Positions 3,205 through 19,740 of a DNA stretch of 34,285 bases are shown here, in pieces; the stretch's first letter is position 1; each line of letters begins with the position of its first letter. Made by a program: the position numbers and the translations under genes. The stretch is from NCBI GenBank assembly GCA_902619495.1, contig CACNEM010000008.1:1-34285 (forward strand). Reading direction: 5' to 3'. Under the pieces are notes generated by a model that saw only the letters and a list, made by a program, of their open reading frames with translations, did no database searches and had not been told where the DNA came from. This DNA is from an uncultured Pelagibacteraceae bacterium. Its GTDB lineage: Bacteria; Pseudomonadota; Alphaproteobacteria; Pelagibacterales; Pelagibacteraceae.

Positions 3205-4263
3205 TTACGCTACTTTTCCATACTCTTTCATGTGCCTAGGTATACGTTTATTGTTACCGTACATGAAATGGTTGGACATATTTTCCCTAAATCTGCTTGC
3301 CGGAACCCTTAATCCAATAGCTTCAGCCACCTCTCTGATATGCATTGGACTTGCTCCACAGCAAACACCTATGTACTTGACGCCTAAATCAAATACCTCT
3401 TTTGCAAAATTTCCAATCTCATATCTATTGCATTGCAATGGATCCAAAGCAGTAGGGAAAGTTCTACCATGAGGAGATGGACAATTACATCCATTATTAT
3501 CTGGAAGATTAAAAAATGTTGGATGCTTTTTAGTTGTTCTGTAAGGAACAGGTAAAGCAGCAACATGACATTTTAATTCTTTTCTTATTTCTTTAATATA
3601 AGGAAGCATTGTAGCCGGACCTCTAAAACAATTTAAACCAACAACATCGGCTCCAAGTTCCTCCAACTTTTTGCACGTTTCTAGAATAGTGTAACCATCT
3701 CTCATTTTATTTTCACCCATCGGGGAAATTGTAATTACAGATGGAAGACCAGATTTTTTTATTTCTTCAAGTGCCGCAAATGCCTCTTCTGCATAATAAA
3801 AAGTTTCACCAATAATAAAATCAGCTTTTTCTTCTTTTGCCCATTTTACCATTTCTGCAAACATATTTTTTACTTGAGTTTGAATTTTAGGATTATTTAC
3901 TTCCCAAATATTACTGTTAGAAATATTACCGGCCATCAAACTTACACCTAAACCCTTAGGTGGATTATCAGCACATTTTCTAGCAATTCTTAAAGCAGCT
4001 CTATTCAAAGGCTCAAGCAAATGCTCCTTATTGATCACTCTCATTTTTTCTCTATGACCATTATAAGTAAATGCTTGAACAATGTTAGAACCTGCGTGTT
4101 GAAATTCTTTATGAAGGTTTTCCAATACTTCAGGATGTTCTAGTGCTACTTCAGGAACAAATTCACCAGAAGTTAAATAACCTCTTCGTTCCATTTCAAA
4201 TAAATAACCTTCTGCACAAATTAAAGGTTTTTTCTTTAACGTGTCTAATAAAATATTACTCAT
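3205..4263 (-). CDS. bhmT: Betaine-homocysteine S-methyltransferase
   Basis: Zinc-dependent methyltransferase that moves a methyl group from glycine betaine (or a similar donor) to homocysteine, giving methionine and dimethylglycine. 352 residues. The homocysteine-methyltransferase barrel has the three zinc-binding cysteines: Cys212 in GLNCFRGP and Cys301-Cys302 in GVCCGASPMHIRE. The N-terminal segment AEGYLFEMERRGYL and the QAFTYNGHREKM segment are BHMT-like rather than MetH-like. The start ATG overlaps the end of a 21-codon leader ORF, and its ribosome site (GGAGAG, 5 bases before ATG) lies in a 7-bp hairpin. Upstream are a SAM-V element, an intrinsic terminator and a SAM-II aptamer, so high SAM should shut it down. 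The donor could also be another methylated onium compound; the sequence cannot decide. Confidence 0.92.
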   Translation of the reverse strand: MSNILLDTLKKKPLICAEGYLFEMERRGYLTSGEFVPEVALEHPEVLENLHKEFQHAGSNIVQAFTYNGHREKMRVINKEHLLEPLNRAALRIARKCADNPPKGLGVSLMAGNISNSNIWEVNNPKIQTQVKNMFAEMVKWAKEEKADFIIGETFYYAEEAFAALEEIKKSGLPSVITISPMGENKMRDGYTILETCKKLEELGADVVGLNCFRGPATMLPYIKEIRKELKCHVAALPVPYRTTKKHPTFFNLPDNNGCNCPSPHGRTFPTALDPLQCNRYEIGNFAKEVFDLGVKYIGVCCGASPMHIREVAEAIGLRVPASRFRENMSNHFMYGNNKRIPRHMKEYGKVA

Positions 4264-4321
4264 GTTCTCTCCAATTAACCGGAGAGAGATGAAATCTGTC
4301 GAGGGGGTTTATTGATTTCAT
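4256..4321 (-). CDS. 21-codon leader ORF between SAM-V and bhmT
   Basis: Short frame starting MKSINPLDRFHL, ending WREHE and stopping at a TAA inside bhmT codons 2-3 (the sequence CATGAGTAA holds both the bhmT start and this stop). Its ATG lies 6 bases after GGAG of the CUAAAAAGGAG tail of the SAM-V element, so this frame, not bhmT, is what SAM-V masking would control directly. Codons 12-14 and 17-19 form the two arms of a hairpin that hides the bhmT ribosome site. A ribosome crossing this ORF would open that hairpin and end at the bhmT start. I infer a translational-coupling leader; a functional peptide is also possible. Confidence 0.55.
   Translation of the reverse strand: MKSINPLDRFHLSPVNWREHE
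4266..4287 (-). promoter_or_regulatory. Hairpin sequestering the bhmT ribosome binding site
   Basis: On the minus strand TCTCTCC (4281-4287) pairs perfectly with GGAGAGA (4266-4272) across an 8-base loop. The 3' arm contains the GGAGAG ribosome site that lies 5 bases before the bhmT ATG. Both arms are inside the 21-codon leader ORF, so its translation would disrupt the stem. Confidence 0.6.
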
Positions 4322-4327
4322 CTACTT

Positions 4328-4385
4328 CTCCTTTTTAGTACTTCGGCATATGCCAGGTGTACAATATGGTTCAAATACCCGGTTT
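4328..4385 (-). promoter_or_regulatory. SAM-V riboswitch aptamer
   Basis: Second SAM-sensing element of the leader. On the minus strand it begins near GGGTATTTGAACC, contains the self-complementary GGCATATGCC (4345-4354) and ends GAAGTACTAAAAAGGAG. The CUAAAAAGGAG tail carrying the Shine-Dalgarno is the hallmark of SAM-V elements of marine Alphaproteobacteria, where SAM binding folds the ribosome site into a pseudoknot and blocks translation. Here the masked site belongs to the 21-codon leader ORF. Boundaries are approximate, and the call rests on consensus memory rather than a covariance search. Confidence 0.75.
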
Positions 4386-15178: not shown

Positions 15179-16234
15179 ATGAAACAAAAAGATTTAATTT
15201 TATACTCTAGTTTAATTATCTTAGGTTTAGTGGCACCTTATTTGTTTTCTGCTTTTAAAGTTCAGCTTACATATCTTTGTGTTTTGATTGTTCTAGCAAT
15301 GACTTGGAATCTACAAGGCGGAGAGATGGGCTACAATACTTTTGGAAATATACTTTTCTATGGGTTAGGAATGTATCTTACTGCCTCAGTTCAAGTAGGA
15401 ATGTTTTTCCCGTTAGCTGAGTGGACTGAAAGCGGCGGTGAAAAAACTTTTGTTCATACTACTGCACAATATTTTCAAGGAATAGGTGTCGGATTATTAG
15501 TTTCAGCAATTGTTCCTGCTGTTATTGCTGGCGCTATAGGTTACGCTATTTTAGGATTGAGAGGACATTACTTTGCCATTTGCACTTTAGGTTTAGGTAT
15601 CGCTGCAGGTGAAATTGCTGGAGGAATAGAAATCATTGGAGCTGGTCAAGGATTTACTACACCACCTTTTCCTGCCGAAATAGTCGATACTGAAGCTAGA
15701 GGAAAGTTTTTCTACTTTTTAAGTTTTGCATTATTAGTCGGTACATTTATTTTTGTTAAATATATTTATGGTTCTAGATTTAGATTAATTTTAAATGCAA
15801 TAAGAGATAATGAAGATAAAGCAGAGGCAATGGGTATTCAAACTATGAAATATAAAATTGTGGGTTGGATGTGTTCAGCCTTCTTCTGTGGTCTTGCTGG
15901 TGGAATTATGGGCGGACTAATTGGGTATATAGACTCCACTGATGTTGCTTTTGACGGAAGAGAGATGGGAGTATTCATGGTTCTTATGGCAATTCTTGGT
16001 GGAAAAGGAACTTTGTGGGGCCCAGTGATTGGTGCAACTTTATTCCATTTCTTTAAAGAAGGTCTTTGGACTTTAATATTAGGCTGGCAGTATGTAGCGT
16101 TAGGAGTTTTAATTGTTGTAATCGTAGTTTATTTCCCAGAGGGATTAATGGGTTGGTTAAGAGAAAAATATCCTGAAAGATTTGGTGAAGTGATAGATGA
16201 AAAGGATCGTAAAGCACAGGTGGAATTAAAATGA
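15179..16234 (+). CDS. livM: Branched-chain amino acid-type ABC permease, LivM-like
   Basis: 351-residue partner permease, about ten membrane helices. Landmarks are LAMTWNLQGGEMGYNTFGNILFYGLGMY, where the family usually has GLAGQLSLGH, then GLRGHYFAICTLGLGIAAGEI, NAIRDNEDKAEAMGIQTMKYKI (coupling loop) and AILGGKGTLWGPVIGA. It ends in a four-base ATGA overlap with livG. The altered GGEMGYNTFGN motif and the large LivM-specific loop suggest a ligand other than plain leucine, but this is a guess. Confidence 0.9.
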   Translation: MKQKDLILYSSLIILGLVAPYLFSAFKVQLTYLCVLIVLAMTWNLQGGEMGYNTFGNILFYGLGMYLTASVQVGMFFPLAEWTESGGEKTFVHTTAQYFQGIGVGLLVSAIVPAVIAGAIGYAILGLRGHYFAICTLGLGIAAGEIAGGIEIIGAGQGFTTPPFPAEIVDTEARGKFFYFLSFALLVGTFIFVKYIYGSRFRLILNAIRDNEDKAEAMGIQTMKYKIVGWMCSAFFCGLAGGIMGGLIGYIDSTDVAFDGREMGVFMVLMAILGGKGTLWGPVIGATLFHFFKEGLWTLILGWQYVALGVLIVVIVVYFPEGLMGWLREKYPERFGEVIDEKDRKAQVELK

Positions 16235-16965
16235 GTATCTTACAAGTTAAAAATGTAAGTAAATCTTTTGGCGGTGTTCAAGCTAACGTAGATATTTCAG
16301 TTTCGGTAGAACAGGGATCTATAGTTGGTTTAATAGGACCTAACGGTTCAGGTAAAACTACTTTATTTAATTCTATTGTTGGAACTCATCCGATTGATAA
16401 AGGATCAATTGTTTTTGATAATACAGAAGTTTCCGAAATGCCAGTGCCAGCAGTAGCTAAACTTGGTTTGTTAAGAACCTTTCAACAAACAAGAATTTAT
16501 TCAAAACTTAATTGTGTAGAAAATATGCTAATAAGTCACAAAGCTAGTGACTCAGGGTTTATTTTTGCAAAAGTACCTGCTGAACTTACTGAGAAAGCAG
16601 AAAATATTTTAAACTTTGTAGGTCTTTATCAAAAAAGAAATTTGAGAGCAGGGGATTTATCATTTGGACAACAAAAATTACTCGAATTAGCAATGGCTTT
16701 GATGAATGAACCTAAAATGCTTTTATTAGATGAGCCTACAGCTGGAATTAATCCAACTTTAATTAATGGAATTATAGATAGATTAATTAAAATAAATAAA
16801 GATTATGGAATTACTTTATTAGTCATAGAGCACAATATGAAAGTAATTATGAGTTTAGCACAAAAAATTTTCTGCTTAGCGCACGGTAAAATGCTAGCAG
16901 AGGGTTCACCAGACCAAATTAAAAATGATAAGCGGGTTGTTGACGCTTATTTAGGAGCGCAGTAA
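16231..16965 (+). CDS. livG: ABC transporter ATP-binding protein, LivG-like
   Basis: 244-residue cytosolic ATPase of the HAAT importer. Walker A GPNGSGKT (36-43), the Q-loop region LRTFQQTRIYSKL, signature LSFGQQKLLELA (Gly-Gly replaced by Phe-Gly, common in LivG), Walker B MLLLDEPTAGINP, and the switch His in VIEHNMKVI. It overlaps livM by four bases and shares the last base of its stop with the livF start. Confidence 0.93.
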   Translation: MSILQVKNVSKSFGGVQANVDISVSVEQGSIVGLIGPNGSGKTTLFNSIVGTHPIDKGSIVFDNTEVSEMPVPAVAKLGLLRTFQQTRIYSKLNCVENMLISHKASDSGFIFAKVPAELTEKAENILNFVGLYQKRNLRAGDLSFGQQKLLELAMALMNEPKMLLLDEPTAGINPTLINGIIDRLIKINKDYGITLLVIEHNMKVIMSLAQKIFCLAHGKMLAEGSPDQIKNDKRVVDAYLGAQ

Positions 16966-17750
16966 TGGCAAATCAATACGATGTTCTAGGTAAAGCACCT
17001 GGTTTAGAAGATTTAAACAAATTATCTCCTAACGACGTTCATCTAACCATAAGAGGCTTAAATGCTGGCTACGGAAAAATGGAGATACTACATAATTTTG
17101 ACTTAACAGTCAGTAAGGCTCAATCGTTATGTTTAATAGGACCTAACGGTGCAGGAAAATCTACAATTCTTCACTCCATATACGGATTTACGAATATTTT
17201 TGATGGAAAAATTGAATTAGAAGGAAATGAAATTACTACATTAACTCCTGCTCAGAAACTAAGTAAAGTAGGTATAGCTTATATCTTACAAGATAATTCA
17301 GTATTTCCTGATATGACAGTCGAGGAAAATCTTTTAATGGGCGGATACATTAAAGATAAACAGGACGAGGCTTATGAGGAAGCTGAAAGAATTTTTCAAA
17401 AATATGAGAGATTAAGAAATAGAAGAAATCAACCTGCAAAAGTTTTATCAGGCGGTGAGAGAAGATTATTAGAAATTTCAAGAGCATTAGTTATGAAGCC
17501 ATCAGTTTTACTAGTAGATGAACCATCAATTGGTTTGGAGCCAAAATATATAAATATGGTTTTTGAAATTTTAGAAGATCTTCAAAAAGCAGAGAAGAAA
17601 ACAATAATACTTGTAGAACAAAATGCAAAAAAAGGTTTAGAGTTTGCAGATATAGGATACGTTTTAGTATCTGGTCAAACAGCTATTGCAGGAAAAGGGG
17701 ATGATCTTTTAAAAAATCCAGACGTAGGAAGATTATTCCTTGGTGGATGA
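16965..17750 (+). CDS. livF: ABC transporter ATP-binding protein, LivF-like
   Basis: 261-residue second ATPase. It carries an N-terminal extension of about 25 residues (MANQYDVLGKAPGLEDLNKL) before the ABC core, which the second LivF of this window lacks. Walker A GPNGAGKS (59-66), signature LSGGERRLLEIS, Walker B VLLVDEPSIGLEP and EQNAKKGLEFAD near the end, typical of LivF. It overlaps azlC by four bases (ATGA). Confidence 0.92.
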   Translation: MANQYDVLGKAPGLEDLNKLSPNDVHLTIRGLNAGYGKMEILHNFDLTVSKAQSLCLIGPNGAGKSTILHSIYGFTNIFDGKIELEGNEITTLTPAQKLSKVGIAYILQDNSVFPDMTVEENLLMGGYIKDKQDEAYEEAERIFQKYERLRNRRNQPAKVLSGGERRLLEISRALVMKPSVLLVDEPSIGLEPKYINMVFEILEDLQKAEKKTIILVEQNAKKGLEFADIGYVLVSGQTAIAGKGDDLLKNPDVGRLFLGG

Positions 17751-18451
17751 TTAATTCACAAGCTTTCTTTACAGGTTTAAAATCTTTAAAAGGTGCAAGA
17801 AGTCCGGCGTTACCTTTAGCAGCGTGTTTTGTTGCTTTAGGCGCTTTACTTAAAGATGCTGGATTTAATATTCAACAGAGTGCAGCTTCAAGTTTTTTTA
17901 CATATGCATTACCTGGACAATTAGTAATGGCAGAGTCATTATTACTAGGTGCATCTATCGTAAATATTTTTTTAGCAGTTTGGTTAGTGAACTTTAGACT
18001 TTATCCAATGACAGTGTCTTTATTTCCTTTACTTGAGCATAAATCCCAACCTAAGTGGAAATATTATTTATCTTGTCATTTTCTTGCAGTTTCATCCTGG
18101 TTAATTGCTAAAGAAGCTTATAAAAAAATTAATCCAAAATATCGAATAGATTTTTGGATAGGCATTGGTACTGGAACTTGGTTAACAGCTGTACTTATGA
18201 CAGTTATTGGGTACTTAGCAGCAGATCTTTTAAATAAAGAAATGTTAATTGGATTAGCAATTGTAAATCCAATTTATTTTTTTTGTATGATGATAGGCGC
18301 TATGAAAAACATAGCCATATCTATTTCGGTAATTTTAGGAACAGCTTTAGGACCAGTAATTTATTTATTTTCTACTGAGTGGTCATTATTATTTGCTGGA
18401 TTAATAGCAGGGACTGTTGCTTATTTATTTGGAGAAAAAGATGGCAAGTAG
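17747..18451 (+). CDS. azlC: AzlC-family branched-chain amino acid exporter, large subunit
   Basis: 234-residue membrane protein, first of an AzlCD (BrnFE-type) two-component exporter. Visible landmarks are the FVALGALLKDAGFN and FFTYALPGQLVMAESLLLGAS segments and VNFRLYPMTVSLFPLL, matching the AzlC core. It is translationally coupled to livF by ATGA and followed by azlD. Placing an amino acid exporter within an importer operon suggests overflow control or an exchange role; that is inference. Confidence 0.85.
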   Translation: MINSQAFFTGLKSLKGARSPALPLAACFVALGALLKDAGFNIQQSAASSFFTYALPGQLVMAESLLLGASIVNIFLAVWLVNFRLYPMTVSLFPLLEHKSQPKWKYYLSCHFLAVSSWLIAKEAYKKINPKYRIDFWIGIGTGTWLTAVLMTVIGYLAADLLNKEMLIGLAIVNPIYFFCMMIGAMKNIAISISVILGTALGPVIYLFSTEWSLLFAGLIAGTVAYLFGEKDGK

Positions 18452-18767
18452 TCAACTTATAATTTTTGCAATTATAGCAACATCAATAGCTACATACATT
18501 TCTAGATTTATGGGAGCATTAACTTCAGAAAAAGTAAGCATTAATTCAAAAATATTCAAATGGTTTAACTGTGTCGCCTATTCAACTTTAGCAGCTTTAC
18601 TTGGAAGAATGATAATATTTCCTGCAGGAGTTTTAGCAGACTCAGAACTTATAATGAGACTAATAGTATTCTTTACTTGCATTGCAATATTTATAATATC
18701 TAAAAAAAACTTAGTAATACCTACGGTTACTTCTGCAATTTTACTAAGCTTTTTGACTAACATTTGA
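18441..18767 (+). CDS. azlD: AzlD-family small exporter subunit
   Basis: 108 residues from MASSQLIIF, preceded by GGAGAAAA; the frame is open upstream to 18417 but that start has no ribosome site. It has about four membrane helices and the AzlD mark TYISRFMGA near residue 20. It overlaps the azlC end by 11 bases, the usual AzlC-AzlD arrangement. Its last codons contain the -35 of the next promoter. Confidence 0.82.
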   Translation: MASSQLIIFAIIATSIATYISRFMGALTSEKVSINSKIFKWFNCVAYSTLAALLGRMIIFPAGVLADSELIMRLIVFFTCIAIFIISKKNLVIPTVTSAILLSFLTNI

Positions 18768-18780
18768 TTTATGGTAAAAT
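18753..18780 (+). promoter_or_regulatory. Promoter for the micro-ORF and glutarate hydroxylase
   Basis: TTGACT (18753-18758) and TAAAAT (18775-18780) with a 16-base spacer. The expected start, 6-7 bases downstream, falls on or next to the ATG at 18787, implying a leaderless or nearly leaderless transcript. Confidence 0.5.
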
Positions 18781-18786
18781 TACAAA

Positions 18787-18843
18787 ATGGAACCAATACT
18801 AGCAATTTTTATTGTTTTGTGGATTATGGGTACTATTGAGTAA
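18787..18843 (+). CDS. 18-residue hydrophobic micro-ORF before glaH
   Basis: Frame MEPILAIFIVLWIMGTIE, a single hydrophobic helix with acidic ends, ending in TAA directly abutting the next ATG (TAAATG). It begins about six bases after a good -10 box, so it would be translated from a leaderless message. The following gene has no good ribosome site of its own, which fits translational coupling. It could be a membrane micropeptide or only a coupling device. No homologue is known to me. Confidence 0.4.
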   Translation: MEPILAIFIVLWIMGTIE

Positions 18844-19740
18844 ATGAGCTTTTCATTATCACATCATAATAATTCAAAGAGAGTTCGTGTAATAAAATTA
18901 AATGAAAGCGACCTTGATAGATTGATTTTTCCTTTTAAAAAACATTCAATTTTATCTTTAGAATATAAACCATTTTCGAGATTTAGCCTTGCCAAAAGCT
19001 TGGATGAAGTATTTCAAAATAAGTTAGGTAAAACTTTAAATGATATTCTTAATGACCGTAATACAGGAACTGCGATTGTTGAACCCGATATAAAGAATAA
19101 AAAATTTGATAAAGATTTTTTAGTTAAGCTTTCAACGGGTCTTGCTTATCTAGTTGGAAATCCCAACTTTGACTCCATGACAGGGAAATACTATGCAAGA
19201 TTTCATGTAAAGCACCAAGATAGTAGCGACTCCTATCTTAGAAAAGCTTATACAAATTTAGATCTTCATACAGACGGAACTTACGTTAAAGAGAAAACCG
19301 ATTGGATTATAATGACAAAAATGGAAGAACAGAATGTCGGTGGAGGAGAAAGTGTAATTTTACATTTAGACGATTGGGAACATTTGGAAGATCTAAGTAA
19401 TGATCCTGTCGGTCAAGAAGATTTCGTATGGGGATCTCCAAAAAGCAAGAATGTTGATTATAAAGTTGAACATCCTGTATTTACAAAAGATAAAAATGGC
19501 AAGCCAGTTATTTCTTATATTGATCAATTTCCTGAACCAAAAAATATGAAACAAGGTTTATTTTTGCAAAAATTATCAGATGCTTTAGAGCAAAGTAAAA
19601 ATAAAATAAGCTTTCCACTACCTGTGGGGTCGACAATTTTCTCAAATAACTATTTTTGGTTGCATGGAAGAAAAGCTTTTAAAGAGCATTCTGGGTTATC
19701 AAGAGAATTACTTAGAATTAGAGGAACTTTTTTTCATTAA
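18844..19740 (+). CDS. glaH: Glutarate 2-hydroxylase, CsiD/GlaH family
   Basis: Fe(II)/2-oxoglutarate-dependent dioxygenase that hydroxylates glutarate to L-2-hydroxyglutarate, linked to lysine/glutarate catabolism. 298 residues. It resembles E. coli CsiD throughout: ALxYKxFxRF-like SLEYKPFSRF, NFDSMTGKYYARFHVK, DSSDSYLRKAY, the Fe-binding HTD (His142, Asp144) in DLHTDGTYV, MEEQNVGGGES, LHLDDWEHL, YIDQFPEPK, the distal His274 in WLHGR and the closing SRELLRIRGTF. No L-2-hydroxyglutarate oxidase (lhgO) is next to it; instead the tctCBA transporter follows. The TauD-like fold could act on another acid, but the family-specific motifs favour glutarate. Confidence 0.87.
   Translation: MSFSLSHHNNSKRVRVIKLNESDLDRLIFPFKKHSILSLEYKPFSRFSLAKSLDEVFQNKLGKTLNDILNDRNTGTAIVEPDIKNKKFDKDFLVKLSTGLAYLVGNPNFDSMTGKYYARFHVKHQDSSDSYLRKAYTNLDLHTDGTYVKEKTDWIIMTKMEEQNVGGGESVILHLDDWEHLEDLSNDPVGQEDFVWGSPKSKNVDYKVEHPVFTKDKNGKPVISYIDQFPEPKNMKQGLFLQKLSDALEQSKNKISFPLPVGSTIFSNNYFWLHGRKAFKEHSGLSRELLRIRGTFFH

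Follow-up and report, generated by a model that had tools for sequence, protein, structure and literature searches.

In translational expression platforms of the anti-RBS/anti-anti-RBS kind, alternative pairing decides whether a ribosome-binding site (RBS) is covered. The term 'anti-RBS regions' appears in PMC9481103, a review of tandem riboswitches. Work on the SAM-V riboswitch of bhmT has dealt with an aptamer of ∼52 nt, and in the published model it directly occludes its own Shine-Dalgarno sequence (SD; PMC6061858). A 2024 study also includes a full-length construct (PMC11508383). Upon SAM binding, the SD bases pair with aptamer bases 14-15 in helix P2a, which has only 2 bp in the published structure (PMC6061858). 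SAM binding has been published for both bhmT and metY aptamers (PMC5069961, PMC6061858), on sequences other than the one analysed here. Direct occlusion is typical of the SAM-V class and does not define the aptamer. Two further leaders are relevant. In the SAM-II leader of Sinorhizobium meliloti metA (PMC9373788), the SD of the riboswitch is needed, AUG1 is unused and the start lies 74 nt downstream, and at the B12 riboswitch of ppe2 in M. tuberculosis (PMC11260477) a short ORF precedes the gene, as it does in the locus described below.

The window, by which we mean the whole 34,285-nt stretch from an uncultured Pelagibacteraceae bacterium that was analysed (contig CACNEM010000008.1), carries the same aptamer as the published SAM-V elements of metY and bhmT in 'Ca. 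Pelagibacter ubique' (PMC6061858, PMC2704228, PMC9481103). All the features named below lie on its minus strand. SAM-V (RF01826; 68.2 bits, above the gathering score of 41) occupies 4389-4325 and, as in the published examples, its SD (GGAG, SD1; 4331-4328) is located at the 3' end of the aptamer and would be partly in P2a when SAM binds. Downstream are bhmT (homocysteine S-methyltransferase family, PF02574, 352 aa; 4263-3205, ATG at 4263-4261) and a MetY-like gene (3146-1854). The gap from the GGAG of SD1 to the bhmT ATG is, however, 64 nt in the window and 69 nt in HTCC1062 (genome G299, matched by its coordinates in Table 1 of PMC2704228). A riboswitch SD that acts by direct occlusion lies at most ∼10 nt from the regulated start, and neither of these two loci has such a spacing. 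The ribosome site of bhmT is a second SD (SD2; GGAGAG, 4272-4267). In the ORF list, a 21-codon ORF (MKSINPLDRFHLSPVNWREHE; 4321-4256) follows SD1 and its TAA (4258-4256) spans codons 2-3 of bhmT. The original prediction had assigned SD1 to this ORF rather than to bhmT, and had placed a hairpin over SD2; the ORF, its stop inside bhmT codons 2-3 and the hairpin were all found at the positions it gave.

Upstream of SAM-V, another element (4503-4429) scored 22.9 bits with SAM_alpha, below the gathering score of 36 for RF00521 (SAM-II), and is therefore called SAM-II-like only. A terminator-like hairpin with a T run, read directly from the sequence, lies between this element and SAM-V (4430-4402). 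Using one text pattern, such a hairpin was found upstream of SAM-V in 126 of the 134 loci of L001-L143 (18/18 bhmT spacer, 66/69 metY spacer and 42/47 direct or other loci). A scan of 12 loci at gathering level returned SAM-V only. A published statement concerns P. ubique among sequenced organisms, and the tandem review PMC9481103 counts 149.

We compared this locus with those of the relatives. Of 297 relatives, 140 carry SAM-V, and a search of 397 genomes from the order gave a match in 190; in the order-level search, 30 loci were among the matches listed and 20 regions were read. Full-length bhmT at 87-100% identity occurred in 18 of 169 genus genomes, the window's included (any match in 28), and the spacers read in all the 18 gave 15 distinct sequences, hereafter window-type. 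In named records, the bhmT sequences nearest to that of the window come from single-cell Pelagibacteraceae (≤98%) and from 'Ca. Pelagibacter ubique' HIMB058 (92%). More distant SAR11 records added 29 further distinct bhmT spacers among the matches listed, which makes 44 in total. In these 44 spacers, HTCC1062 included, SD1 is 60-75 nt away from the gene. The genus also has 69 metY loci with a SAM-V spacer of ∼90 nt (62 distinct), and in its remaining metY loci SD1 stands directly before the start. The latter, direct arrangement was also seen at nine distinct bhmT loci among the matches listed and, outside the genus, in the metY loci read, in mmuM-like loci and in a presumed osmC locus, the last two names resting on papers and appearance. 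The 157 spacer-class loci were reduced to 108 distinct sequences and, after L139 and L208 were dropped as direct-type, to 44 bhmT and 62 metY spacers. The MetE-like loci L125 and L126 were kept apart, and only L125 entered the 'all types' permutations described below. The SAM-V text pattern missed 9 of 143 loci (L001-L143); in eight that were read later the SD adjoins the gene, and L143 was left out.

In predicted folds, three strands of the window's spacer can pair in alternative ways. Strand X comprises SD1 (GGAGAAGUAG) and the bases that follow it (AUGAAAUC; 4331-4314), Y (GAUUUCAUCUCUCUCC; 4296-4281) is the complement of X, and Z (4273-4266) includes SD2, with its first bases repeating those of X. 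Y can pair with X (4331-4327 with 4285-4281; 4323-4314 with 4296-4287) or, via its end, with Z (4287-4280 with 4273-4266). The latter pairing is the hairpin over GGAGAG (4287-4266) that was claimed earlier to be perfect over 7 bp with both arms inside the ORF span of 4321-4256, and it was indeed obtained on folding; RNAfold extends it by a G-U pair (−10.7 kcal/mol, z −3.45) and none of 200 shuffles was equally good. That the real SD of bhmT can be covered by a hairpin thus stands as a prediction. Two pairings had been overlooked. The leader AUG region (GAUGAAAUC) is joined to GAUUUCAUC in a 9-10-bp stem (4323-4314 with 4296-4287), to which the SD2 hairpin is an adjacent second stem. Moreover, the 5' arm of the SD2 hairpin, UCUCC, can instead be taken up by SD1 (GGAGA), which would free SD2. 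The SD1-UCUCC fold is the MFE structure of the 140-nt stretch and the SD2 hairpin belongs to the centroid structure, and the two are mutually exclusive. The predicted folds therefore contain two exclusive helices with one common strand, one of them covering an RBS, which is the arrangement of an anti-sequestor.

We propose that the stretch separating SAM-V from bhmT works as a translational expression platform of three strands, in which SD1 and SD2 exchange on Y, and we put the probability of this reading at about two in three. Without SAM, X would be free and would pair with Y once Y is transcribed; SD2 would then emerge unpaired and bhmT would be translated. With SAM, the aptamer would hold the GG of SD1 in helix P2a, the end of Y would pair with SD2 and bhmT would be off. 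The inner X-Y stem, with the 'leader' AUG in it, would in the window's group be paired in both states, and only UCUCC would swap between SD1 and SD2. Among the mechanisms considered, this SD1-Y-SD2 exchange is the best supported, most strongly for the HTCC1062-like spacers and with less certainty for the window's group.

The X-Y pairing recurs throughout the relatives. The whole GGAG of SD1 was paired downstream in the MFE structure of the stretch before Z in 44/44 bhmT and 61/62 metY-type spacers, and the bhmT stems have ∼12 or more pairs, bulges counted. In direct-type SAM-V loci, where the SD stands just before the gene, SD1 was fully paired downstream in 4 of 76. Among shuffled spacers, SD1 was paired somewhere in 1914 of 5350 and SD2 as well in 1625, and a stability at the real level was reached in 2 of 5350. 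Beyond the SD, the sequences differ from group to group and yet match each other: X reads GGAGAAAAGGGCUU and Y AAGCUCUUUUCUCC in L176, while in the window GGAGAAGUAGAUGAAAUC of X pairs with GAUUUCAUCUCUCUCC of Y.

We tested the covariation of this part by comparing the X-Y duplex energy beyond the SD for own and permuted partners (20,000 permutations), with relatedness handled only by thinning to representatives. We observed the following. For all types, at 7, 11, 16, 25 and 33 representatives, 14, 2, 0, 0 and 0 of the 20,000 permutations were as good as the real pairing. For bhmT, none was at 12, 19 and 22 representatives, and 848 were with only 4 representatives. The more divergent bhmT spacers alone gave 4 and 0 at 16 and 18 representatives, respectively. 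The X-Y helix, the candidate anti-sequestor, thus covaries outside the SD. In the larger sets, only a minority of the X strands had their own Y as the best partner (e.g. 4/16); in the smallest set 4/7 did. Positions 12, 13 and 14 of X each show all four Watson-Crick pair types among the 44 bhmT spacers, as read from each sequence's own fold, a procedure that favours pairs. Two alignments were set aside for these counts. In a MAFFT alignment of the 44 spacers, X was displaced by 3 nt from one group to another, and in an alignment of 10 sequences the bulge register varied.

The loop closed by the X-Y stem contains a CCCUC-like motif (4301-4307 in the window) in 39 of the 44 bhmT spacers, 29 of which have strict CCCTC, and in 1 of 62 metY spacers. 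Its complement was present upstream in 0/44 and downstream in 5/44 bhmT spacers, and no partner was found.

The predicted hairpin over SD2 recurs in the relatives as well: at least 3 of the 4 SD2 bases are paired upstream in the local fold in 44/44 bhmT and 62/62 metY spacers. The distance from the end of Y to SD2 is 7-13 nt in the former and 5-9 nt in the latter. The pair flanking the hairpin loop (Y+1 with Z-1) is AU, UA, GU or GC in 42/44 bhmT spacers and complementary in 13/62 metY spacers. Outside the SD, Y-Z permutations gave no covariation signal for bhmT (15,354 to 19,502 of 20,000 in five sets); for all types, 448 of 20,000 were as good at 33 representatives and the smaller sets had no signal. 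Any strand complementary to SD1 fits SD2 as well, and the case for selection on the SD2 hairpin is weaker than that for X-Y.

This promiscuity of an anti-SD strand is what one would expect if the SD2 hairpin alone damped bhmT constitutively, X-Y being a by-product of the identical SDs and SAM-V acting otherwise, e.g. on mRNA stability. The closed state of SD2 modelled below for the window's group, even with X free, would suit that explanation too. We regard it as quite improbable, for X-Y runs well past the shared SD and covaries there.

We then turned to the energetics of the SD1-Y-SD2 exchange, using nearest-neighbour equilibrium models of the spacer that exclude the SAM-V pseudoknot. The modelled probability of SD2 being open, with X free and with the GG of SD1 held, respectively, was 0.96 and 0.16 for HTCC1062, 0.72 and 0.0004 for the metY-type spacer L023, and 0.064 and 0.00014 for the window at 37 C (0.22 and 0.00003 at 20 C). 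Freeing X raised the opening of SD2 by >0.1 in 25/44 bhmT and 53/62 metY spacers (37 C). With X free, SD2 was open at >0.5 in 18 of the 29 other bhmT spacers and 35 of the 62 metY spacers and in none of the 15 window-type spacers, where the median was 0.063; in L161, L010 and L014 it remains closed (0.005, 0.006 and 0.032). SD1 itself was open in the window-type spacers under this condition (median 0.81, >0.5 in 14/15; 0.92 in the window). The equilibrium model thus fits HTCC1062 well, and in the window's group it predicts a strong relative response with SD2 still mostly covered. Since SD2 is mostly closed there even when X is free, the timing of folding must matter in that group if the exchange operates. 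Before Z is made, the unpaired probability of SD1 was ≤0.001 at all six loci tried, the window among them; X-Y would thus be complete before Z is transcribed, and a co-transcriptional choice could favour X-Y. We infer that such timing lets X win in the window's group.

An SD1 that is open at equilibrium, as modelled for the window, could also serve as a standby site, on which the 30S subunit would bind at low SAM before moving to the bhmT start 60-75 nt downstream. The geometry resembles that of the S. meliloti metA leader, for which the authors propose a standby-like mechanism and no three-strand switch is seen in the accessible part of the report (PMC9373788); by analogy, the mutant results obtained there could also fit the three-strand model. 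At the present locus, standby binding appears rather unlikely. bhmT owns a well-spaced SD2, SD1 is predicted to be paired as soon as Y is made at six of the six loci tried, and standby binding does not predict X-Y covariation outside the SD.

The original prediction was of another kind. Without SAM, SD1 would load ribosomes on the 21-codon ORF, their translation would melt the SD2 hairpin and bhmT would be translated by coupling. The AUG is indeed well placed after SD1, and with X free the window model, in which SD1 is open (0.92) and SD2 closed, would allow SD2 to be opened by some other means. In window-type spacers, the leader frame is open through the hairpin and reaches the bhmT start in 14 of 15, the remaining one having a stop in the hairpin loop. 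This conservation does not, however, extend to other relatives. Among the 29 more divergent bhmT spacers, 20 lack an AUG 3-13 nt after GGAG, and GUG and UUG are absent there too. In metY-type spacers, the AUG is missing in 1/62 (GUG instead), a stop follows after 2-4 codons in 5/62, and the other leader frames end in several frames. Neither the start nor the frame is thus conserved across relatives. In the window, moreover, the unpaired probability of the leader AUG in the model was 0.001 whether SD1 was held or not. The synonymous bias expected of a translated leader was not seen in codons 1-15 of 10 distinct ORFs (3 synonymous and 11 non-synonymous changes, p = 0.63; L092 and L119 omitted for indels), in a test of low power.

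The leader-ORF gate was rejected as the main mechanism because the ORF is not conserved and its AUG is, in the window, predicted to be paired in both states. We consider the leader-translation step unlikely and the chain as a whole the least probable of the explanations weighed here; the 21-codon ORF is probably incidental rather than a required leader. The observation that SD1 is badly placed for bhmT survives from the original prediction; that it serves the ORF instead finds no support in the relatives. The coupling step had also been thought possibly undescribed. Coupling of a riboswitch with an uORF has already been reported at ppe2 (PMC11260477), which lends the chain a precedent; uORF translation is reported to be essential there, whereas the ORF here is not conserved. 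The direct bhmT locus L218 begins GGAGAAGTAGATGAAA, like the window's spacer, so that, speculatively, bhmT may once have started at what is now the leader AUG.

The link of the SD1-Y-SD2 exchange to SAM runs through helix P2a. By our own position counting, the SD bases of P2a are the GG of SD1, and we infer that SAM binding displaces X from Y and so affects translation of bhmT. At aptamer bases 14-15, 72 of 73 distinct spacer-type sequences have CC and 67 of 69 direct-type sequences have CT, the latter class being mostly metY in this count. The difference would make sense if the aptamer had to hold SD1 more tightly against a competing Y. The nine direct bhmT loci are mixed, with CC in L139, L141, L200, L208 and L218 (of which only L200 and L218 are within the above count) and CT in L006, L137, L140 and L142, and shared ancestry therefore explains part of the split; L177 is ambiguous.

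We found no prior description of the SD1-Y-SD2 arrangement in the literature searched, which does not prove its absence and did not cover Poiata et al. 2009 (RNA), said to be the original characterisation of SAM-V. SAM-V goes unmentioned in the accessible part of a study on the covariation of whole riboswitches (PMC13273304). The published SAM-V model is direct occlusion (PMC6061858), whereas the 44 bhmT spacers have SD1 60-75 nt off, a second SD and three strands. The kind of platform is known; the class in which it would occur here has been described as acting by direct occlusion. In contrast to the usual anti-RBS/anti-anti-RBS platforms, the switching strand here is itself an SD and competes with the controlled SD for one strand.

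With somewhat less assurance than for the bhmT spacer itself, we lean towards a wider reading. Across SAR11, the SD of bhmT-type SAM-V may have been converted from a translation signal into a switching strand that imitates the real SD and vies with it. By branch migration, SAM binding would transfer a toehold from the one SD to its rival, and metY and a MetE-like gene would be preceded by the same device, so that this translational decision would be taken in very large numbers in the surface ocean. If the three-strand model is true, constructs of the short aptamer lack the expression platform, and the way in which methionine synthesis responds to SAM in these abundant marine bacteria must be redrawn. 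The spacer would also be a strand-exchange design from nature, with two near-identical ribosome sites in competition, and the S. meliloti metA result could be read differently.

Several further observations concern the genes around these spacers. L125 and L126 have SAM-V and a three-strand spacer before a MetE-type methionine synthase-like gene, as judged by eye. L286 retains SAM-V, X and Y without SD2 and with no bhmT match behind them, and is possibly a remnant after loss of bhmT. In an HTCC1062-like genome, a further SAM-V (L283 464-528; 57.6 bits) lies downstream of bhmT and directly before another gene, probably osmC, to go by PMC5069961.

Another small ORF, of 16 codons (MKKETTRETIRGKINV; 3189-3139, minus strand), is found in the window directly upstream of metY, and its stop overlaps the metY start. 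All 62 distinct metY-type spacers contain a similar ORF, often reading MNETxRETxRGKING, that ends 5 nt beyond the ATG of metY, and so do 17 of 18 bhmT-metY operon loci. Its synonymous excess was not significant (11 synonymous and 27 non-synonymous changes, p = 0.15). If the operon uses a leader ORF, this one is the better candidate. The metY-type spacers (e.g. L023) resemble a bhmT leader fused to the small ORF upstream of metY, as a bhmT-metY operon would look after deletion of bhmT.
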